From the NCBI RefSeq assembly GCF_902170305.1, contig NZ_CABHWW010000014.1:186001-250000 (forward strand): 64,000 bases of DNA, read 5' to 3'. Made by a program: the position numbers and the translations under genes. A model generated the notes under the pieces. That model ran no database searches. It was not told where the DNA came from and worked only from the letters and a program-made list of their open reading frames with translations. Below, in pieces: positions 54,814 to 64,000 of this stretch. Origin of the DNA: Yersinia alsatica. Lineage in GTDB: Bacteria > Pseudomonadota > Gammaproteobacteria > Enterobacterales > Enterobacteriaceae. Every line of letters starts with the position of its first letter. Within the stretch, counting starts at the first letter, position 1.

Positions 54814-55932
54814 ATGAAAATCAATCACCATAAGTTACCTGAACATACCCTGAGTGGGCAGCGTCAATTAACCAGTTTTCACTTTGGCCAACCGGGTGTG
54901 GGCGAGAAAATCTACCTTCAGGCTGGCCTGCATGCCGATGAACTGCCCGGTATGCTGGTATTACATTATCTTAAAAGATTACTGAGTCAGGCGGAACGGC
55001 GGGCCGAAATTCAGAGCGAAATAATTATTGTGCCAATCGCTAACCCGGCCGGTATTGCGCAAGTGCTGCTTAACAGTGGAATCGGCCGTTTTGATCTGGT
55101 CAGCGGGCGCAATTTTAATCGTGATTTTCCTGATCTGGCTAAGTTGCTTCAGCAGCGGCTGGGCCACCAGACATTAAGTCAAGAAAGCCATCAGCTGCGG
55201 CAACAGATACGCCGCGAAATGGTTGATGCCTTACAAAATTTGCCTGCTAACAGTGAAGTGGATGCTTTACGGCAACATTTACTGATGTTGGCTTGTGATG
55301 CGGATCTGGTGCTGGATCTGCATTGTGATGATAGTGCCATTTTGCACTTATATGCCGATCCCGCCTGGCGTGAGTCGGTCGATACACTCGCGCGCTTTTT
55401 GCATATCGACACCGTGTTGCTGTCACAAGATAGCGGCGGTGGCTCCTTTGATGAAGCTTGCGGCTTGCCGTGGCACCGGCTGGCGCAGCAGCCAGATTTA
55501 AGTGCGCTGGCCCCGGCTTGCATGGCGGTCACCGTGGAGTTGCGAGGGCAGCAAGATGTCAGCCACGCGTTAGCCAGTGCGGATGCCGAACGTATTTACC
55601 ACTATTTGCAGTATCGGGGGGCCATTGCCGGGGCCAAGCCAGATATCCCGCAGCGCGACGTGGTGATGTTGCCATTTTCCGCCGGAGAAATTGTCACCGT
55701 ACCCGCCAGCGGCCTGTTGCTGCTAGTGCGTCAACCGGGCGACTGGGTCGGCAAAGATGAAGTGGTGGCTGAAATCATTGACCCCATAACTGATACCGTG
55801 AAAGCCGTACGGGCGAAAGCCGGGGGCATTATCTATGCCAGTCGTCGCGCGCCGTTTGTGACCTTGGGGGCTGAAGTCATGAAAATCGCCGGGAAAACAC
55901 CCTATGCCGGCGGCGGGGAAGTGGCGTCGTGA
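54814..55932 (+). CDS. AstE/AspA-family deacylase (N-acyl amino-acid type)
   Basis: A 372-residue zinc carboxypeptidase-fold enzyme of the succinylglutamate desuccinylase/aspartoacylase family. Zinc ligands are in GLHADELPG (His and Glu-type positions), a further His is in LDLHCDDSA, and the substrate Arg is probably in GRNFNRDFP. The C-terminus is a small lipoyl-like beta domain (GEIVTVPASGLLLLVRQPGD). Related enzymes remove acyl groups from amino acids (DoeB in ectoine breakdown, AstE in arginine breakdown). AGGAC precedes the ATG. Its neighbours suggest a role in amino-acid scavenging; the substrate is open. Confidence 0.83.
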   Translation: MKINHHKLPEHTLSGQRQLTSFHFGQPGVGEKIYLQAGLHADELPGMLVLHYLKRLLSQAERRAEIQSEIIIVPIANPAGIAQVLLNSGIGRFDLVSGRNFNRDFPDLAKLLQQRLGHQTLSQESHQLRQQIRREMVDALQNLPANSEVDALRQHLLMLACDADLVLDLHCDDSAILHLYADPAWRESVDTLARFLHIDTVLLSQDSGGGSFDEACGLPWHRLAQQPDLSALAPACMAVTVELRGQQDVSHALASADAERIYHYLQYRGAIAGAKPDIPQRDVVMLPFSAGEIVTVPASGLLLLVRQPGDWVGKDEVVAEIIDPITDTVKAVRAKAGGIIYASRRAPFVTLGAEVMKIAGKTPYAGGGEVAS

Positions 55933-56071: not shown

Positions 56072-57322
56072 TTATTTCAAATAATGGGCATCGTACTTCG
56101 ATTCGATAGATGACAACATACCTAAAAACTTAAATGGATCCAATGAGTTGATCCCCCCCCTCTCTTGTTTAATTTCAATAGGCATATTACCAACGTCACA
56201 CCATTGTAGAATACCCGCAGCATCAATATAAGCTCTCGATTTACCTTTATTATCAAAGTGAAGACAATAAGGTACATCAATAATACCCAAGCTAAATGCT
56301 TTGAGTATTGCCTCGCCAACATCAGAATCTAAATTCAGAACATGGCTTATTATATTAGTCGCTTCAGTATAAATTTCATGAAAAAATAAAGTACTGTCTT
56401 TATATGAATTGTACTCCCCCAGTGAATCCCAATGTTTACGGGCCCTTTCGAGGGAAGCAATATTTTCGACAATTGTCGGTATACGAAAAGCTTCTTTTAC
56501 CGTTTTGGTGATCAGCCTTTCAGCATGACCATATTTACAGATTTCAACGCTGGCCTTCAGTAGGTCTGTCGCCCCTTCGATGGTTTTTGGGAAAACCCCC
56601 ATATAGGTATACACAACAACATGCCATTCAGCCTTTTTAAGCCATTTCGTTGCCAATTCACGTAATGCACGAACTGCGCCGATATCTTGGCTGACCGATG
56701 TCTGCTGCGCATAGCTTAAAGAAAGACTGGTCAACCCATAACGTTCAAAAAAAACCCCTTCAATAATAGCAAGAGCCACTAGCAAGCCCGGCGGACACAT
56801 TTGCCCAAGCATACATCCGCCAAAACTCTCAATATGGAGAGGTCCAAACGCCCCTCCTATTGCAGCCATGTTTACACATTGTCTCCAAGAATTTACGGCG
56901 TCCTTCAACGGAGTACGGCTATATGGCAAGCAATACGAAATTGGGCCACCTTCGGTTGCCATAACACCACTTTCCACAAGACATTCAAATATGTGGTTAG
57001 GCAGAGAACTACCATGCCTGACTTGAACCATAAAATAGTCATCTTGAATGGTATTAAGTAAATCAATACATTTTCTAGAACCATGATTAATGATCGGATA
57101 ACCATTTAATATATGCCCAGCATCCAGACTTTTTTGAGCATTTACAATATCATCCACCCGAGTATAGCTGTCTAAAGTGATGGTACCCATCGTCGTTGCA
57201 TTGGCATTTTTGACGGCTGTTAATCCATTCAGCATCTTATCTGGGCAATCAAACCCCATACGAGGTTGTACCGTTAACATGCCGTTTCGATTGGCTTGGG
57301 TGACAATTTGGTTAAAATCCAT
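56072..57322 (-). CDS. B12-dependent glutamate (methylaspartate) mutase E-subunit homologue
   Basis: A 416-residue protein similar to GlmE, the catalytic TIM-barrel subunit of glutamate mutase, which rearranges L-glutamate to (2S,3S)-3-methylaspartate using adenosylcobalamin. Family blocks seen are TVQPRMGFDC, LNGYPIINHGSRKC, VRHGSSLPNHIFEC, ATEGGPISYCLPYSR, HIESFGGCM and a C-terminal GIIDVPYCLHF/CDVGNMPIEIK. Clostridial GlmE is about 480 residues, so this version is shorter. It lies 18 bases after a B12-binding subunit gene on the same strand. Both diverge from a ligase/exporter set, suggesting a biosynthetic rather than fermentative role. Confidence 0.85.
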   Translation of the reverse strand: MDFNQIVTQANRNGMLTVQPRMGFDCPDKMLNGLTAVKNANATTMGTITLDSYTRVDDIVNAQKSLDAGHILNGYPIINHGSRKCIDLLNTIQDDYFMVQVRHGSSLPNHIFECLVESGVMATEGGPISYCLPYSRTPLKDAVNSWRQCVNMAAIGGAFGPLHIESFGGCMLGQMCPPGLLVALAIIEGVFFERYGLTSLSLSYAQQTSVSQDIGAVRALRELATKWLKKAEWHVVVYTYMGVFPKTIEGATDLLKASVEICKYGHAERLITKTVKEAFRIPTIVENIASLERARKHWDSLGEYNSYKDSTLFFHEIYTEATNIISHVLNLDSDVGEAILKAFSLGIIDVPYCLHFDNKGKSRAYIDAAGILQWCDVGNMPIEIKQERGGINSLDPFKFLGMLSSIESKYDAHYLK

Positions 57323-57340
57323 GATAAGTATTTTCCCTGT

Positions 57341-57799
57341 TTATTCACTTGTCAGTAGCGCCAGAAAATCATCAAAGGAATCTCCCTGCTGGCTGTCGTC
57401 ATAAACTGCATCAAACCCTTCTGATAGTAATTCTTTGATATAAGCCACATTGCCCGCACCTGCTGTCCCCAGTTTTCCGCCGATAAAGCAGGGAAGGTGA
57501 CAAGTCAGTTTATGTTCCCTGATTTTTTTGATCAGGCGTCGACCATCAATATGTCCATGACCATTCACACTGCTAATAACCAGCATGTCAATATCTTCAG
57601 AAATGCAATTCTCAATAATCAATTCATCAGGAGTACAGGCTCCTAAATTCACTACTGAGTGGCCATAATGCTCAATCAACAATTGGATAAAAACCAGGTT
57701 CCATGTGTGGGAGTCTGAAGATATGCCTGTGAGTAAAATCTTCAGTGGTTTCTCAATCGTTAGTTTTTTGTTTCTTATAAAGCTAATGTGTTGACTCAT
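57341..57799 (-). CDS. B12-binding subunit of glutamate mutase (GlmS-like)
   Basis: A 152-residue cobalamin-binding domain of the GlmS type. The lower axial ligand is His31 in SDSHTWNLVF; the usual DxHxxG motif is here DSHTWN, with Asn instead of Gly. The other B12 motifs are SSVNGHG (residues about 90-96) and IGGKLGTAG. The first gene of a two-gene unit with the E subunit, it would bring the cofactor to that protein. AdoCbl is required and Yersinia can acquire or make B12, but no cob genes are visible here. I recall this DSHTWN variant from antibiotic-cluster mutases. Confidence 0.87.
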   Translation of the reverse strand: MSQHISFIRNKKLTIEKPLKILLTGISSDSHTWNLVFIQLLIEHYGHSVVNLGACTPDELIIENCISEDIDMLVISSVNGHGHIDGRRLIKKIREHKLTCHLPCFIGGKLGTAGAGNVAYIKELLSEGFDAVYDDSQQGDSFDDFLALLTSE

Positions 57800-57878
57800 A
57801 TTCTTATCACCATAAGCATATAAACTATTTAAAATAATTTAACTATTCATATAAATAAAAGTCAAAAAATACCACCGC

Positions 57879-57893
57879 GCCACCTTGGGTGGC
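57879..57893. promoter_or_regulatory. Palindrome in the divergent mutase/ligase intergenic region
   Basis: GCCACC-TTG-GGTGGC is a perfect 6-3-6 inverted repeat within an AT-rich 275-base region (57800-58074) that separates the two divergent arms of the cluster. It is the only GC-rich palindrome there and could be an operator. I see no gene in the region. Confidence 0.4.
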
Positions 57894-58074
57894 AATTATT
57901 TATTTGATAAATAAAGATGAATATAATATTAACGCCACGCGCCGTCTTATTTTAATATTAATTTATTTACACCATAAAAAGCCTGTGATAAGTTCTGTAA
58001 CACTTTAAGTACATATAAAACCAACCAAATATCAACAAACAATTCATTGATGCCATAGGCTATTAGGGGGTTGC

Positions 58075-59289
58075 GTGAGAGTTCTTGTTCTTCACTGTGT
58101 ACGCTATGAATCAATCCTTTACCATTTAGCAATTGACCATCAAAACAATGATGTCGTGTATATTGGCCTGCCTGATAAATTAGCTGATATTCCTAGCAAC
58201 CTCCGGTGTGAGAAAGTTAGTATCACTGGCGAAAAAGCACTGTATGAAGAAGTCGAGTCCTGGCTAACGGATCACCCTCAAAAATTTGATAAGCTTATTT
58301 CAGTTTCTGAGTTTGAATTGCTGACAGCGGCAAAACTCCGTGAGCGTTTCGGTATTAACGGGGCTAATTATGCACAAACAGAAAAGGTGCGTAATAAAGT
58401 GATTATGAAGCAGTGTGTGCAAAATGCGGGCATTCGCACTCCCCGCTTTGCTCATCTAACACACTGGTTTAAGGATCAAACGGTATTTCCTGTTGCAGGC
58501 AAAGTGGTCATTAAACCACTGGATGGTGCTTCCTCAAAGTACGTGACTATTTTTGCCACAGCAGAAAGCGCATTTGATACCTTAACTCAACGCACAACTG
58601 GAGTTCCTCAGCTTGATGCCGGTCAATATGATAATTTCGAGATAGAGGAATATTGTTCTGGGCCAATACTGCATATTGATGGCATTGTCAGCAACGATAA
58701 AATATTGATTATTATTGCCAGCCGATATATTAATTCTCTGCTTGATTTCGCCAATGGTACACCTTCCGGATCAGTTCAATTTGAAACGGATAAAGTATTC
58801 GAGAACTGGGTCAGTACAATTCTTGCTGCGACCGAAATTCATAACGGGGCGTTCCATTTGGAAGCAATTGAAACTGACAATGGCAACGTCTTTTTGGAGA
58901 TCGCTCATCGGGTAGGGGGAGCTAGAATATCGGATACCTTTGAACTAAAGACCGGTATCCACCCGTCTGTGGCAGAAATAAAAGCACATTTAGATAACGA
59001 CATTCAGTTAAATATTAAGTGGGATATGGATTATTTGTACGGATGGTTTATTTTCCCCGGACACCACCTTGCGGCAGATAAATACCAAATTTCAGGACAT
59101 GAATATCTACATGACCACCCAAATGTGTTGCATTTAAATCAGCTCCCCTTAGAACAGTATTTATTGAAAACTGTCACTTATAATGAAAAGCGTTTACCTC
59201 TGGCAGGCATTATCCGCGGGCAAACCACGCAAGAACTGACTAACATGCTCAATGAAATGTACTCTAGGGTGAAAATAACGAGTGCTTGA
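58075..59289 (+). CDS. ATP-grasp amino-acid/peptide ligase
   Basis: A 404-residue ATP-grasp enzyme of the L-amino-acid/dipeptide ligase type. The N-terminal domain starts MRVLVLHCVRYESILYHLAI. ATP-binding residues are in GKVVIKPLDGASSKYV, the lid strand is FEIEEYCSGPILHIDGIV, and the metal-binding block is HLEAIETDNGNVFLEIAHRV followed by GGARISD (His where many relatives have Asn). Such enzymes join a carboxylate to an amine through an acyl phosphate. The GTG start has AGGGGG four bases upstream. It heads the rightward arm and is followed by an exporter, as in dipeptide-antibiotic clusters. Confidence 0.85.
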   Translation: MRVLVLHCVRYESILYHLAIDHQNNDVVYIGLPDKLADIPSNLRCEKVSITGEKALYEEVESWLTDHPQKFDKLISVSEFELLTAAKLRERFGINGANYAQTEKVRNKVIMKQCVQNAGIRTPRFAHLTHWFKDQTVFPVAGKVVIKPLDGASSKYVTIFATAESAFDTLTQRTTGVPQLDAGQYDNFEIEEYCSGPILHIDGIVSNDKILIIIASRYINSLLDFANGTPSGSVQFETDKVFENWVSTILAATEIHNGAFHLEAIETDNGNVFLEIAHRVGGARISDTFELKTGIHPSVAEIKAHLDNDIQLNIKWDMDYLYGWFIFPGHHLAADKYQISGHEYLHDHPNVLHLNQLPLEQYLLKTVTYNEKRLPLAGIIRGQTTQELTNMLNEMYSRVKITSA

Positions 59290-59322
59290 ATGAAATATGG
59301 CTGATAAATATAGGGAATGTAA

Positions 59323-60516
59323 ATGAAGCCTTTATCATCGGCAGAGTTCTTTATTAACATGGCTCGCGCCATGCTGCTACTCAGCATAGCAAAATTCATG
59401 TTTGATGAGACCGGACAGATATGGATGGTCAGTATTTCATTTATTAGTGAGATATTTATTTCTGCCTGCATGCCGCTGTTAGCAGGGAAGTATGTTGATA
59501 ATCACGGCGTATCAGGTATTTTACGCGGCGTTGCTGCCATGAATATTTTCACTAGTTTGGTGACACTCTTAATTTGGTATCATGCTGGACTTTCTGCTGG
59601 ACTAATACTCTTTATCTCCATTGTGTTGAGTGCGTTATGGAGAATGAGTCGGCTATGTGTATTTAATCTCATCCCAACGTTGTTAACCTTCGAAAAATTA
59701 GAATGGGGCAATGGTAAGTTGATGTTTAATTCACAATTGGGGCAATTAATTGGCATAATCAGCGCTGGGGGGTTGTTATATTTTTTAAATTTTCCCACAG
59801 TAATCGGTGTTGTCTCTGTTTGCTTTATTATGGCAGCAATCGGTTATATTCAGGCAACATTGTTACCGACACATAATGGACCAGCAACGGAATTAAAACG
59901 TTTACACTTACCACAAACTATCAACAGCCTGATCAGTGCTTGCAAGCGATACGGGCTATTATTTGTGATCAGTGATTTTGATTTTACTGTTCTGGCAATA
60001 TTCAATATCTTGTTAGCTTCTATCGTGTCTGAGAACTTCGGTGGCAATGCCTTATGGATGTCGGGTATTGATGCATGCTATGCCCTTGGTGCTATTACCG
60101 GTGGAGCGCTTGTCAGCCATTGGCAAGTTAAAACACGATACTGGCATGTTACATCAGTACAGCTGATATTTTTAGTATGGCTGGGAACGTCAGCCGCTAT
60201 TACAACTAGTTATCTTATTATTATCGCTTCATTCATTATGGGATACTTTACCAGTTTTTCCGGTATTTATTGGCGTACGTTCTTGCAGCAAAAGCTACCC
60301 ACTGAAATACGTGGCACACTGACTGGTGTAAAGTTTATTTTATCTTCTCTGTGGATAGGCATGGTCAGTTTATTCATTTCATGGATACATCAATTTGGCT
60401 TTGATAAGGCTATTTACAGCTCTTTAGCTATTGTTACCTTGCAATTATTAATTTTGAGTTATTACAAAAAAACTCACCTCACACAGAAAAGAAAATTCGC
60501 TAAGCAGCACAATTGA
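59323..60516 (+). CDS. MFS transporter (likely exporter)
   Basis: A 397-residue inner-membrane protein with about 10-12 hydrophobic segments and the loop AGKYVDNHGVSGILRGVA after TM2, as in the MFS_3/EntS-like branch of small-molecule exporters. It lies 33 bases downstream of the ATP-grasp gene. The position suggests that it exports the product of the cluster and may give self-protection. The substrate cannot be read from the sequence. Confidence 0.8.
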   Translation: MKPLSSAEFFINMARAMLLLSIAKFMFDETGQIWMVSISFISEIFISACMPLLAGKYVDNHGVSGILRGVAAMNIFTSLVTLLIWYHAGLSAGLILFISIVLSALWRMSRLCVFNLIPTLLTFEKLEWGNGKLMFNSQLGQLIGIISAGGLLYFLNFPTVIGVVSVCFIMAAIGYIQATLLPTHNGPATELKRLHLPQTINSLISACKRYGLLFVISDFDFTVLAIFNILLASIVSENFGGNALWMSGIDACYALGAITGGALVSHWQVKTRYWHVTSVQLIFLVWLGTSAAITTSYLIIIASFIMGYFTSFSGIYWRTFLQQKLPTEIRGTLTGVKFILSSLWIGMVSLFISWIHQFGFDKAIYSSLAIVTLQLLILSYYKKTHLTQKRKFAKQHN

Positions 60517-60625
60517 AAATTAAAGTTTCGTTCTGATTTAAAATTTAATAATACCCCGTGGTTAAACAACAACTGAGTTAACGTACTGATTTTATTTTTA
60601 TTTAACTTTAACAAGGAGTATTATT

Positions 60626-61336
60626 ATGTCACGAAAAGATATTAATACTACAAAAGATTACTTTAAATCAGTATTGATTGGACATGGTGATAATGACTAT
60701 GAAAAATACATGAATACTGAATTTTTATTATCTTTACAAAGAAGTTCTGATGAGTGGATTCATCGGGATGAGCTTCTTTTTCAGATTATTCACCAATCTA
60801 CCGAATTGTGGTTGAAGCTGAGTAATGAAGAGTTAAAAGAAGCGATCAAACTACTTGAAGAACATAGTTTATCACACGCGACAGCACTCATTCAGCGTGC
60901 TTCACAATGTATTCGCTCTATTACAGAACAGTTGGAAATACTGACACATATGACGCCATACGATTTCTTTAGGATCCGTCCAATATTGGGTAACGGCTCT
61001 GGGTTGGAGTCCCCTGGCTGGAAAAACGTCAATACTATTGGCCGAGAAATGGCAAAAACAATAAACAACTATCTTGACGAAACTGAAACCGATCTGATTA
61101 AGGTTTATACCCAACAGACACACAGCGAAATATTTAATCTTTGCGAAGCGCTTATTAGCTGGGATGAGTGGGTTTCATTATGGCGTACCCGTCACTATAA
61201 AGTAGCTGTTAGGACGATCGGGCACAAAACCGTTGGAACCAAAGGTACACCGGTCGACAAATTAGCACAATTGATCGGTCATAAATATTTCCCTCGTCTC
61301 TGGCAATTACGCTCAGAACTGGTGGAGGAGTATTGA
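60626..61336 (+). CDS. Compact tryptophan 2,3-dioxygenase-superfamily protein
   Basis: A 236-residue haem protein homologous to tryptophan 2,3-dioxygenase (TDO), shorter than the typical 280-400. The distal His is retained (His56 in QIIHQSTELWLKL). The substrate-carboxylate Arg is in PYDFFRIRPILGNGSG, and the axial haem His is probably the one in WRTRHYKVAVRTIGHK. The end HKTVGTKGTPVDKL corresponds to the GTGGT/S loop of TDO. A strong AAGGAG precedes the ATG. It is the first of four closely packed genes. It could make N-formylkynurenine or oxidise another indole, as MarE does. Confidence 0.8.
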   Translation: MSRKDINTTKDYFKSVLIGHGDNDYEKYMNTEFLLSLQRSSDEWIHRDELLFQIIHQSTELWLKLSNEELKEAIKLLEEHSLSHATALIQRASQCIRSITEQLEILTHMTPYDFFRIRPILGNGSGLESPGWKNVNTIGREMAKTINNYLDETETDLIKVYTQQTHSEIFNLCEALISWDEWVSLWRTRHYKVAVRTIGHKTVGTKGTPVDKLAQLIGHKYFPRLWQLRSELVEEY

Positions 61337-61341
61337 TATTT

Positions 61342-62475
61342 ATGCAACCGATGTTGACGCCATCATACTTTCGACAACAATATTTTCCTCAGCTTGAGAG
61401 CCTGCACTGGTTAGCGAGTTGTAGTCTTTCGACCCCGTCATCTTTGTTGACAGAAAAAATGCAGGTGATGTTGGACGTAATGGCAAAACCACATTTGGCT
61501 TGGGACTTTTTTGAGAGCGAAATTGAGAGTGTGCGTCATAAAATCGCGAGACTTATCAATGCACAACCGCAGCAAATTGCGCTACTTCCTAATGCATCTG
61601 CCTGTGCCTTCCAAATTATCAGTACGCTAAAGTCATCCGCCACTGTTCGTCTGTGGTACTGCGACAAAGAGTTCCCGTCCATTGCCAACGTGTGGCAGGC
61701 CCAAGCAACATGCGGAGCTTTGATCAGTCATGGTAGTGAACATAAGCTGCTCGAGGCTGGGTTAAATGGCGAGAGTCAGGATCTTATCTCAACGCCACTG
61801 GTGGGATATTTACAGGGAGATTTGCTCCCTGTAGACGAATTGATTCATTTGAACAAAAACAGTCCTGCCAGAGTCGCTGTTGATGCCTATCAAGCGCTGG
61901 GCGTCATCCCTATCGACGTCCAAGCCTTGCGTTGTGACTACCTGTTTGGCGGTATGATGAAATATCTTTTCGGATTGCCGGGGTTAGCATTTTTGTATGT
62001 GCGGGATTTGTCAATTGCCAAGCTTAAGCCCCAATTTACGGGTTGGTTCGCCAGACGTGATCCTTTTGATTTCGAACCTCATGTACTCGATTTTTCCGCT
62101 GATGCTCGTCGCTTTGAAACTGGGACGCCAGCCGTTCCTGCGATCCTTGCAGCGCAAGCTGGGTTATCTCTACTCGAGCAAACAAACGCACTGGCTATCA
62201 GGCAACATATCATGGGTTTGATTGAGTATGCTGCTCACCTGCTACAACAGCAGGGGGAGCAATTGTTCGGTTATTCCTGCGCCCGCCAGCATGGCGCTCA
62301 CCTGGCATTACATGATGCAGCCCCCCATAAGTTGGCTCAGTTTCTTGAACAATACGCCATCGTTACCAGCCCTCGCGGAAAGGTATTGCGCTTATCCATT
62401 CACTATTTCAATAGCACAGATGATATCGATGCTGTCTGCCTGCGTTTGCGGCAATACCGCCGTTCTAATCGATGA
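61342..62475 (+). CDS. Class V PLP-dependent enzyme (kynureninase/cysteine desulfurase-like)
   Basis: A protein of about 377 residues with the fold-type I, class V aminotransferase pattern. The PLP-binding Lys (about residue 207) is in FGGMMKYLFGLPGLAFLY, and the Asp that pairs with the pyridine nitrogen is in VDAYQALGVIPIDV. The block FTGWFARRDPFDFEP with RRFETGTPAVPA resembles kynureninase. It may cleave or transaminate a kynurenine-like product of the neighbouring dioxygenase. The ATG at 61342 lies beyond GGAGGAG; a TTG at 61333 overlapping the previous stop is the alternative start. Confidence 0.78.
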   Translation: MQPMLTPSYFRQQYFPQLESLHWLASCSLSTPSSLLTEKMQVMLDVMAKPHLAWDFFESEIESVRHKIARLINAQPQQIALLPNASACAFQIISTLKSSATVRLWYCDKEFPSIANVWQAQATCGALISHGSEHKLLEAGLNGESQDLISTPLVGYLQGDLLPVDELIHLNKNSPARVAVDAYQALGVIPIDVQALRCDYLFGGMMKYLFGLPGLAFLYVRDLSIAKLKPQFTGWFARRDPFDFEPHVLDFSADARRFETGTPAVPAILAAQAGLSLLEQTNALAIRQHIMGLIEYAAHLLQQQGEQLFGYSCARQHGAHLALHDAAPHKLAQFLEQYAIVTSPRGKVLRLSIHYFNSTDDIDAVCLRLRQYRRSNR

Positions 62476-62485
62476 GATATGAAAA

Positions 62486-63766
62486 ATGAATGAACCACCC
62501 GATGTAATAGCTTGGCAGCTCACTACCAAGGCTGTCCCTGATTCGCCACGCGATACGACTATGAAGCTGATTAATCAGTTAGATGACTGGTTAAACGGGA
62601 GGATTTCGGCTCCTTTGCCGATGGCGGAAATACTGCAAGCCTTCCATGACTACGGCAAACAGTTTGTCGATAAGGCGTTGCTACAGCGTTTGGATGGGGT
62701 GCGCCAGAGACTTGCTGCTTCACAGTTGCTAGCCAATACATGGATAGGCGCTGCGTTGGCGACGTTGCTGGATAAATATGACGGTAAATATGATTACTAC
62801 TCCTATCTTGCATTGGATCTTCTCAACTGGGAAGAGAATGCGACAGGCAATGAAGCGCTGCTGGACTGGCGTTTGACACTACTCACTTTTGATATTATGC
62901 GCTTTGAATTTGCCGCACTGAGTGGCAATGAAAATTGGCTTCCCCGAATACCGAGTGATGAAAAACTCGCCTCAATGCGAGGTCGGCGTCTTCTGCGTGC
63001 TATGCAAGCAGCCCTAGAAAGACAGCAACTCACTCCACACAACGTGGAGAGCGGAGTTATAACCGAGATATCGAACTTATGGTCGCAAATTGACGCCCGA
63101 ATGAGTGAGACAGATAGGCTGCGACTAAACTATTCCTTACTACCAGTGGATAAAGTCCATGATGAATACCTTTTTTTACGGATACTGCAAACCTTTGAAA
63201 CTGTATTCAGTTGGCTGGCCGTCTCACTGAATCAGGTCATTCGGTTAGGAACGACCGATATTCATCAATCCCATCATTTGATCGAACGCTGTCATCAGCG
63301 ACTCTGCGAAGCTTCATTATTATTTCCTCTTCTATCTAGCTTGCGCGTTGAGGCCTTTCGTGACTTTCGCACCCATACCGAGGGGGCCAGTGCAATACAG
63401 TCCCACAGCTATAAAACTGTTGAATCGTTATGTCGAACGCCGAGTAAGGAACGTATTAATTCTATCGCCTATATTTCCGTGCCGGAAGTACGCAACAGAG
63501 TATTGCAGCAATCGGAGACCATCGATTCGGTTTATCTGAACATGGGGCAAACAGCAAGCATCAGCCCATCGGACTTAGCCGTTTTCTCGCAAGCAATGAA
63601 TGCATTCGAATTTGAACTGAAAAAATGGCGTCAATCGCACTACGGTATTGCGGTCAAAATGTTGGGAGTATCTCCGGGAACCGGATATACAGAGGGAACA
63701 CCTTATCTTAATGAAGTCCGGCATATTGCGGTATTCGAAGCCAATAAAATTCAGGAGATAAAATGA
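62486..63766 (+). CDS. Long TDO-superfamily protein, PrnB-like
   Basis: A 426-residue protein whose C-terminal 230 residues follow the TDO fold. HDEYLFLRILQTFETVF corresponds to the haem-pocket helix, FRDFRTHTEGASAIQSHSYK to the substrate Arg region, and WRQSHYGIAVKMLGVSPGTG plus TEGTPYL to the axial His and glycine loop. The distal His of TDO is replaced by Leu in ILQTFE. The first 200 residues are an extension not found in TDO and resemble the layout of PrnB, which opens the indole ring in pyrrolnitrin synthesis. The gene begins 10 bases after its neighbour and overlaps the next start. Confidence 0.7.
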   Translation: MNEPPDVIAWQLTTKAVPDSPRDTTMKLINQLDDWLNGRISAPLPMAEILQAFHDYGKQFVDKALLQRLDGVRQRLAASQLLANTWIGAALATLLDKYDGKYDYYSYLALDLLNWEENATGNEALLDWRLTLLTFDIMRFEFAALSGNENWLPRIPSDEKLASMRGRRLLRAMQAALERQQLTPHNVESGVITEISNLWSQIDARMSETDRLRLNYSLLPVDKVHDEYLFLRILQTFETVFSWLAVSLNQVIRLGTTDIHQSHHLIERCHQRLCEASLLFPLLSSLRVEAFRDFRTHTEGASAIQSHSYKTVESLCRTPSKERINSIAYISVPEVRNRVLQQSETIDSVYLNMGQTASISPSDLAVFSQAMNAFEFELKKWRQSHYGIAVKMLGVSPGTGYTEGTPYLNEVRHIAVFEANKIQEIK

Positions 63767-64000
63767 AGCCCTTACATAACCTGCCGGTGGCAATTGTCGG
63801 AGCAGGCCCAGTAGGGCTGGCACTTGCAGCCCGGCTCTCAACATTTAATATCGCCAGCGTAATCTTCGATAAAGCCCCATTTCTACAGAAAAAAGGCTCT
63901 AAAGCTTGTCTCATCCAGGGCGATGTCCTTGAAATCCTGGAAAAGATAGGATGTGCGACGCGGCTTGCCCAAGAGGGGATACACTGGCGTATCGCTCATA
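63763..64000 (+). CDS. FAD-dependent aromatic monooxygenase, N-terminus (3' truncated by window)
   Basis: The first 79 residues of a flavoprotein. LPVAIVGAGPVGLALAARLS is the dinucleotide-binding GxGxxG motif, and SKACLIQGDVLEILEKIG follows in the manner of group A hydroxylases (PHBH/UbiH/MhpA). CAGGAG lies six bases before the ATG, and the start overlaps the previous stop (ATGA), so it belongs to the same operon. It would use NAD(P)H and O2 to hydroxylate an aromatic ring. The rest, including substrate-specific parts, is outside the window. Confidence 0.85.
   Translation, partial: MKPLHNLPVAIVGAGPVGLALAARLSTFNIASVIFDKAPFLQKKGSKACLIQGDVLEILEKIGCATRLAQEGIHWRIAH

Follow-up and report, generated by a model that had tools for sequence, protein, structure and literature searches.

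Glutamate mutases and ATP-grasp ligases are found together in nikkomycin-type clusters, which encode the glutamate mutase NikU/NikV with the ATP-grasp ligase NikS. Here, we describe a 14-gene biosynthetic cluster of about 15 kb in Yersinia alsatica (genome size 5.0 Mb), which lies at the right end of a 64,000-nucleotide stretch (hereafter the window; contig C14, NZ_CABHWW010000014.1, bases 186001-250000) and continues beyond position 64000 to about position 71258. Positions past the window end are given in an extended numbering, in which window position plus 186000 is the C14 position. Like the nikkomycin-type clusters, this locus places a glutamate mutase beside an ATP-grasp ligase, but no nucleoside genes were recognised among the 14, a tryptophan module is present, and the mutase is not conserved with the core. 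The clusters of bacilysin (BacD) and dapdiamide (DdaF) resemble it in having ATP-grasp ligases, here one with an L-amino-acid-ligase domain, and an exporter of the major facilitator superfamily (MFS); however, the matches to BacD and DdaF score 25-46 bits, where the cut-offs are 850 and 840, and three ligases are present here. A third relative is MarE of the maremycin pathway, a protein of the tryptophan dioxygenase (TDO) fold that forms a 2-oxindole from beta-methyl-tryptophan, according to parts of PMC11904535. A preliminary description, made from the letters of the window, knew of no described pathway with this gene set, and we likewise found none in the open-licence PMC literature.

The cluster consists of a glutamate mutase pair on the minus strand (MutE and MutS) followed by 12 rightward genes with intergenic gaps of -11 to +109 bp, and MutS and the first ATP-grasp gene are divergently transcribed with 275 bp between them (Table 1). 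All named genes inside the window are intact open reading frames (ORFs) and match the families first given to them, apart from one label considered below. The tight coupling described for TDO1, a kynureninase-like pyridoxal phosphate (PLP) enzyme, TDO2 and an FAD monooxygenase was also found, with gaps of -4, +10 and -4 bp. Extension past 64000 supplied the rest of the FAD monooxygenase gene and six more genes, including the aminotransferase AT4 and the hydrolase Cyc. The order TDO1-PLP enzyme-TDO2-FAD monooxygenase-AT4-Cyc is identical in the window genome, in two genomes of one other genus of the family (G682 and G1134) and in the actinomycete Nonomuraea gerenzanensis, so the gene set does recur elsewhere as a six-gene core. 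Identities to the window proteins, in that order, are 54, 40, 39, 53, 63 and 66% for G682 and 53, 44, 42, 48, 59 and 61% for Nonomuraea; by these figures, the two enterobacterial clusters resemble each other scarcely more than they resemble the actinomycete cluster, so neither was recently copied from the other. The clusters of G682 and G1134 are nearly identical (98% over 15.3 kb) and also carry ATP-grasp, MFS, AT1 and VOC genes, with ATP-grasp 1 fused there to another ATP-grasp. That of G1134 lies between sucD-like and cydA-like genes (names read from ORFs). The Nonomuraea locus has an ORF read as MFS, without a family search, and a downstream ATP-grasp gene. This is a real, conserved and horizontally distributed biosynthetic cluster, a conclusion that we hold with high confidence.

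The occurrence of TDO2 is sporadic. A tblastn search of 72,556 plasmid-collection records gave four matches: two in Streptomyces, one in Micromonospora zamorensis and one in N. gerenzanensis, the last in a record of chromosome size. A TDO2 profile gave full-length matches in 1 of 398 Pseudomonadota genomes (its own; 17 further matches reached only 35-41 bits), in 2 of 392 genomes of the family (its own and G682; three more at 37-62 bits) and in 2 of 12 genomes of the genus of G682 (G682 and G1134; two more at about 60 bits). A single-protein search of 147 near relatives returned its own match and two near 20 bits. No TDO2 was found in phages, and viral contigs gave 34 pattern matches and no relative; 296 genomes of the phylum of G520 gave 0 matches at E 1e-20 in a search without a positive control. 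No nucleotide match to the cluster was found in E. coli genomes, and a scan of genome contigs with the PLP enzyme gave 53 pattern matches and 2 weak relatives. In all 7 loci having TDO2, TDO1 and TDO2 are adjacent or have the PLP gene alone between them; given that the two Streptomyces loci are alike and G682 and G1134 are near copies, these amount to about five independent cases. The M. zamorensis plasmid (L011, 9443-16284) carries TDO1-PLP-TDO2 behind genes of a nitric oxide synthase, a flavohaemoglobin-like protein and an unmatched protein of 172 residues; a nitro- or nitric oxide-linked tryptophan pathway is possible there. In the Streptomyces NBC_01343 and NBC_01006 plasmids (L010, L013), TDO1 and TDO2 overlap inside nonribosomal peptide synthetase (NRPS) clusters, which also contain LysW-aminoadipate kinase, ArgC and acyl-CoA dehydrogenase genes. 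Regions around TDO matches in two further genomes (G805 and G040) hold ordinary-looking TDOs. The one in G805, of the same genus as G682, lies beside ORFs judged by eye to encode a hydrolase of the cyclase family, a thioesterase and a 1742-residue NRPS (L083, 10925-18511), and appears to be another tryptophan-linked peptide cluster. Separately, a Streptomyces RerS4 plasmid (L031, 11947-13137) has a 42% identical PLP-enzyme homologue with no TDO neighbours in a 25-kb stretch, which adjoins a KedN5-type radical SAM methyltransferase gene.

The cluster sits between two host genes, an AstE/M14-like gene on the left (54814-55932) and a yghU-type glutathione S-transferase (GST) gene on the right. 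Of 25 genomes of the genus, 20 have a match to the M14 gene, the window genome among them, at 21 loci, and MutE at the window's own locus was the only cluster gene found at any of them. Of the 19 genomes other than the window's own in which M14 was matched, 11 have the GST gene about 10 to 240 bp from M14 without the cluster, and in the other 8 it is not within the 1.5-kb flank of M14. About 80 bp separate M14 from the GST gene in the nearest relative (L054), whose flanks both align with the window genome, where an insert of some 15.5 kb parts them. The GC content of the island is 42.9%, against 48.2% on its left and 49.0% just to its right; the right end of the contig is also low (41.8%), and values of individual cluster genes spread from 38.6 to 50.7%, so that GC is weak evidence for an island. 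Further along C14, beyond the window, one gene (L003:5713-6726) matches Pfam Peptidase_M85, the family of zinc proteases degrading NF-kB p65, with 362 bits and looks like an injected effector; an autotransporter gene with a pertactin-like passenger (L003:9765-11887) reaches the contig end.

The core encodes an unusual pair of diverged TDO-family proteins, and no other TDO-family gene was matched in the window genome. TDO1 scores 133.8 bits with TIGR03036, below the equivalog cut-off of 390.7; it lacks the middle segment of TDO and retains the catalytic residues. In what we take to be the TDO numbering, the haem His and the equivalents of His55, Arg117 and Thr254 are all present in 5 of 5 TDO1 proteins, and every residue checked is kept save Tyr113, which is Phe, as it is in 2 of 14 ordinary TDOs. 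TDO2 has a TDO-like C-terminal half and about 200 N-terminal residues without any family match; all five TDO2 proteins carry the haem His, Arg117 and Thr254, and in all five Leu replaces His55. The Tyr24/Tyr27 positions hold other residues in three of these proteins and gaps in two, with rows trimmed from residue 191 and the alignment there unsure. For a tree, 5 TDO1, 5 TDO2 and 14 ordinary TDOs were used, the last remaining from 15 candidates from the loci and the G805 gene after 2 with a missing motif were dropped; the weak-TDO loci L006, L007, L033, L038, L039, L046 and L086 were left out. TDO1 and TDO2 each form one side of a branch with support of 100/100, TDO1 lying among the ordinary TDOs and TDO2 on a very long branch, and the window and G682 proteins are sisters in both. 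The gene at 62486-63766 had been labelled PrnB-like. This label was rejected: Trp_dioxygenase is the only family matched by TDO2, and no PrnB family was reported for any of five homologues at E up to 1 in Pfam, which presumably holds a PrnB model.

Given that part of the TDO active site is supplied by a neighbouring subunit (as described in passages of PMC11904535), a TDO1/TDO2 heteromer with shared active sites is an attractive possibility. MarE offers a comparison, since it too is a TDO-fold protein in a biosynthetic cluster, both MarE and TDO1 lack a middle TDO segment, and His55/Arg118 of MarE correspond, via TDO, to H56/R118 of TDO1. However, MarE is a single protein, whereas two subfamilies occur together here, TDO2 with Leu at the His55 position; moreover, the TDO1 loop GTKGT is nearer to GTGGS of TDO than to SLGGR of MarE. 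We found no description of a linked TDO pair in the open-licence PMC literature.

The best single-sequence match of the PLP enzyme in the PDB is kynureninase 1qz9 (49.7 bits), narrowly above cysteine desulfurases. It shares with kynureninase the fold, the lysine context, the GW[FQ][AG]R motif and a C-terminal Arg; KY[LM]xG[LV]PG and GW[FQ][AG]R occur in 5 of 5 homologues (the latter as GWFG in 3 of them), where kynureninase has KYLNGGPG and GWFGH. Parts of PMC13397446 report that a PLP-bound aminoacrylate adds to isatin to give gamma-hydroxy-alpha-amino acids. The reverse of this reaction, whose donor we take to be alanine, would release isatin from dioxindolylalanine. The enzymes covered there did not transaminate isatin itself. 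Isatinate would suit AT4, because it is an aryl alpha-keto acid and AT4 needs an alpha-keto acid.

Cyc was then compared with known hydrolases. In the PDB, it matches chains of isatin hydrolase best (160-226 bits), ahead of a cyclase whose function is not stated (115 bits) and metal-dependent hydrolases (46-50 bits); at E up to 1e-5, none of the matching chains bears the name kynurenine formamidase. Its score with the KynB model TIGR03035 is 34.3 bits, for a cut-off of 223.05. Kynurenine formamidase was considered as the most fitting name and rejected, the isatin hydrolases being nearer. Cyc carries the metal motif HTGTHFDAPIH, which fits the HxG[T/A]HxDxPxH of isatin hydrolase given in passages of PMC6117287. 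By hand-counted positions, it also keeps the residues that parts of PMC6117287 and PMC10470551 describe as Mn ligands, as the Asp-His-His triad and as the contacts Ile32/Leu34. The isatin hydrolases LaIHA and RsIHA match Cyc with 225 bits and share these ligands and the triad; they differ in having GLQC/GLAS where the cluster proteins have G[IL]TQ, and Cyc belongs to a biosynthetic operon.

Among 204 records matching Cyc, the surroundings of three homologues were viewed. Those in Deinococcus and Rhodococcus (54-55%) lie directly before genes of thiamine-diphosphate enzymes, for each of which none of the best 25 NCBIfam models reaches its cut-off, and the one in Deinococcus is also near a salicylyl-CoA hydroxylase-type gene. 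A Tsukamurella homologue (49%) adjoins a nitrilase-type gene near genes of indolepyruvate oxidoreductase and salicylyl-CoA hydroxylase types. Such neighbourhoods would suit a conversion of isatin to isatinate and on to 2-aminobenzaldehyde or anthranilate. They also raise the explanation that our operon breaks down tryptophan, indole or isatin for carbon or nitrogen, which the aromatic FAD hydroxylase would fit as well. We consider this highly improbable: the operon has three ATP-grasp ligases and an exporter, no CoA ligase or recognised post-TDO ring-cleavage gene is found among the 14 (the VOC role is unassigned), and its occurrence is sporadic. The preliminary description had left room for an ordinary tryptophan catabolism operon on the right, a candidate rejected for the same reasons, and the extended sequence favours a biosynthetic set.

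Gene content, order, conservation, families, residues and island structure were computed, and from them we infer substrates, step order and product. The conserved six-enzyme module would convert tryptophan into an unusual aromatic amino acid, which the ATP-grasp ligases would join to other amino acids. TDO1/TDO2, acting as a heteromeric haem oxygenase that is MarE-like and not ring-opening, may convert tryptophan to (3-hydroxy-2-oxindolyl)alanine (dioxindolylalanine), and the kynureninase-like PLP enzyme may cleave its C-beta/C-gamma bond by a retro-aldol reaction to give isatin and alanine. Cyc would then hydrolyse isatin to isatinate (2-aminophenylglyoxylate), AT4 would transaminate isatinate to 2-aminophenylglycine, and the FAD monooxygenase would hydroxylate the ring at some stage. 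That the product is a peptide assembled by ATP-grasp ligases around a tryptophan-derived unit is likely. That a small peptide is made and exported by a laterally acquired biosynthetic island, with the tryptophan route running via isatin, is our tentative preference and falls somewhat short of probable. The isatin route as a whole is a little more doubtful. Somewhat unlikely as it stands is the full proposal, namely that a two-component TDO1/TDO2 oxygenase sharing parts of its sites, a kynureninase-fold retro-aldolase and an isatin-hydrolase relative make up a pathway not yet described, in which tryptophan is converted via isatin to 2-aminophenylglycine or its hydroxylated derivative for ATP-grasp peptide assembly in at least two phyla.

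Several observations weigh against the isatin route. Since almost every TDO residue checked is conserved in TDO1, the protein may open the ring as an ordinary TDO does. Site sharing between TDO1 and TDO2 is conjectural, the alignment at the N-terminal tyrosines of TDO2 is unsure, and a single-sequence model of TDO2 (mean predicted confidence, pLDDT, 39) is too poor for use. By profile, kynureninase ranks only third for the PLP enzyme (104 bits, with cysteine desulfurases at 107 and the desulfurase 4q75 slightly higher than kynureninase), and the Tyr before the PLP lysine, present in 1qz9, is Met, Ser or Gln in 5 of 5. Cyc lacks GLQC/GLAS, the signature proposed for isatin hydrolase activity in passages of PMC6117287, and has GITQ instead (GLTQ, GITQ or GLTS in aligned relatives), and its WXW pocket motif is altered. 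Further, a 25%-identical member of its family cleaves a C-C bond, a different activity (according to parts of PMC10470551), and the family therefore does not fix the substrate.

The main rival of the isatin route is a divergent kynurenine route, in which N-formylkynurenine arises through the TDO pair and is deformylated by Cyc, with the PLP enzyme serving as kynureninase and the FAD enzyme as hydroxylase, to give a hydroxyanthranilate for ATP-grasp coupling to amino acids. It is possible, though we doubt it. All four superfamilies from kynurenine to hydroxyanthranilate are present, TDO1 retains H55, R117, T254 and the haem His, and the best single-sequence match of the PLP enzyme is a kynureninase. 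Moreover, Cyc is the only PF04199 match in the window genome, so that no other KynB-type formamidase was found there, while G682 and G1134 have two others each. Yet Cyc resembles isatin hydrolases more closely than KynB and lacks the I(L/I)E motif of KynB named in passages of PMC6117287. The FAD enzyme passes the PRK08132 cut-off, with no kynurenine monooxygenase model among the best 25 of 52. AT4 and TDO2 have no clear role in such a route, which offers no obvious alpha-keto acid for AT4, and 3 of the 7 TDO-pair loci have no Cyc in the stretch examined.

What the glutamate mutase may contribute was considered as well. MutE scores 179.6 bits with NCBIfam TIGR01503 (cut-off 390.1), and MutS scores 56.7 bits with NF002612 (cut-off 110) and 48.3 bits with TIGR01501 (cut-off 135.8), all below. 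MutE is up to 49% identical to Streptantibioticus and Streptomyces mutases. The usual cobalamin motif of the mutase small subunit is DxHxxG, and DxHxWN stands in 6 of 6 aligned secondary-metabolism small subunits, MutS included. Arg66, Arg100, Arg149, Glu171, Tyr177, Tyr181 and Lys326, which we take to be the substrate-binding residues of glutamate mutase, are all seven identical in the alignment of MutE with 6h9e_B (positions hand-counted); because these residues match a crystallised glutamate mutase, 3-methylaspartate is the likely product of MutE/MutS. A fermentation-type enzyme, the role that the preliminary description had allowed for, was rejected, since the host encodes one as a separate gene elsewhere that is 31% identical to MutE.

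The mutase is, however, a local addition, as judged by its absence from the homologous core loci: no MutE match was found in the whole genomes of G682 and G1134 (0 of 2, with the window genome as positive control) or in the 31-kb Nonomuraea locus. The earlier assignment of the gene thus stands and its role as defining partner does not; here, 3-methylaspartate can be no more than an additional building block, which MutE/MutS probably adds in this genome. It is also conceivable, if rather unlikely, that one island carries the mutase pair and the rightward operon as unrelated passengers, with the operon alone making the peptide, an explanation compatible with our preferred one. The absence from the core loci and the divergent transcription 275 bp away are in line with this, as are the relatives of MutE: of 30 plasmid records, five were viewed (44-49% identical, Streptomyces and Methylobacter), which lie near AsnA and NRPS genes, PLP, AMP-ligase and polyketide synthase genes, or amino-acid metabolism genes, and not with genes of the rightward operon. 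On Streptomyces NBC_01343, a mutase and the TDO pair share one plasmid, roughly 140 kb apart. Against unrelated passengers, the mutase pair and the operon share their two flanking host genes, and GC is similar in MutE, MutS and ATP-grasp 1 (40.5-41.6%). In addition, ATP-grasp 2 has only 25% identity to its G682 counterpart, no close match, which leaves a ligase that could use 3-methylaspartate. Comparison of the other G682 proteins gave 46% identity between ATP-grasp 1 and the N-terminal half of a fused ligase of 820 residues, and 39% between the MFS exporters.

The preliminary description had envisaged a small amide of 3-methylaspartate and an indole- or kynurenine-derived unit. Its tryptophan-derived amide or peptide agrees with the three ATP-grasp ligases, the exporter, the island-like site and the patchy spread, 3-methylaspartate is no longer a defining part, and the kynurenine label is doubtful, as the hydrolase resembles isatin hydrolase rather than kynurenine formamidase.

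Table 1. Genes of the cluster. Positions above 64000 are in extended numbering; the starts of AT1, ATP-grasp 2 and ATP-grasp 3 were chosen by us downstream of the ORF openings at 67093, 68681 and 69945.
Gene	Position	Strand	Family evidence
MutE, glutamate mutase large subunit, secondary-metabolism type	56072..57322	-	Pfam Met_asp_mut_E PF06368, 292 bits
MutS, B12-binding small subunit	57341..57799	-	B12-binding, 37.5 bits
ATP-grasp ligase 1, opens the rightward run	58075..59289	+	ATP-grasp_4, 34.5 bits
MFS exporter	59323..60516	+	MFS_1, 37 bits
TDO1, short Trp-dioxygenase-family haem protein	60626..61336	+	Trp_dioxygenase, 89 bits
Class V PLP enzyme, kynureninase-like; TTG start in ORF list	61333..62475	+	Aminotran_5, 102 bits
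TDO2, second TDO-family protein	62486..63766	+	Trp_dioxygenase, 46.9 bits
FAD aromatic monooxygenase, PRK08132-type; cut by window end	63763-65391 (C14:249763-251391)	+	NCBIfam NF006002, 534 bits (cut-off 416)
AT4, BCAT-like class IV aminotransferase	65411-66340	+	NF005146, 254 bits (cut-off 279); PDB 6h65, 315 bits
Cyc, isatin-hydrolase-like PF04199 cyclase/amidohydrolase	66356-67093	+	Isatin hydrolase chains, 160-226 bits
AT1, HisC-like aminotransferase	67123-68220	+	TIGR01141, 236 bits (cut-off 276.55)
VOC protein	68260-68730	+	PF00903, 29.8 bits (cut-off 20.6)
ATP-grasp ligase 2	68768-70039	+	ATP-grasp_4, 85.8 bits
ATP-grasp ligase 3, with LAL_C2 domain	70029-71258	+	ATP-grasp_4, 76 bits; LAL_C2, 46 bits

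Even under the hydroxyanthranilate route, a linked TDO pair recurs in enterobacterial and actinomycete clusters, an arrangement for which we found no description. If the isatin route is true, it would be a new biosynthetic use of tryptophan, with a new role for enzymes of the kynureninase and isatin hydrolase folds and a haem oxygenase composed of a diverged TDO-family pair.

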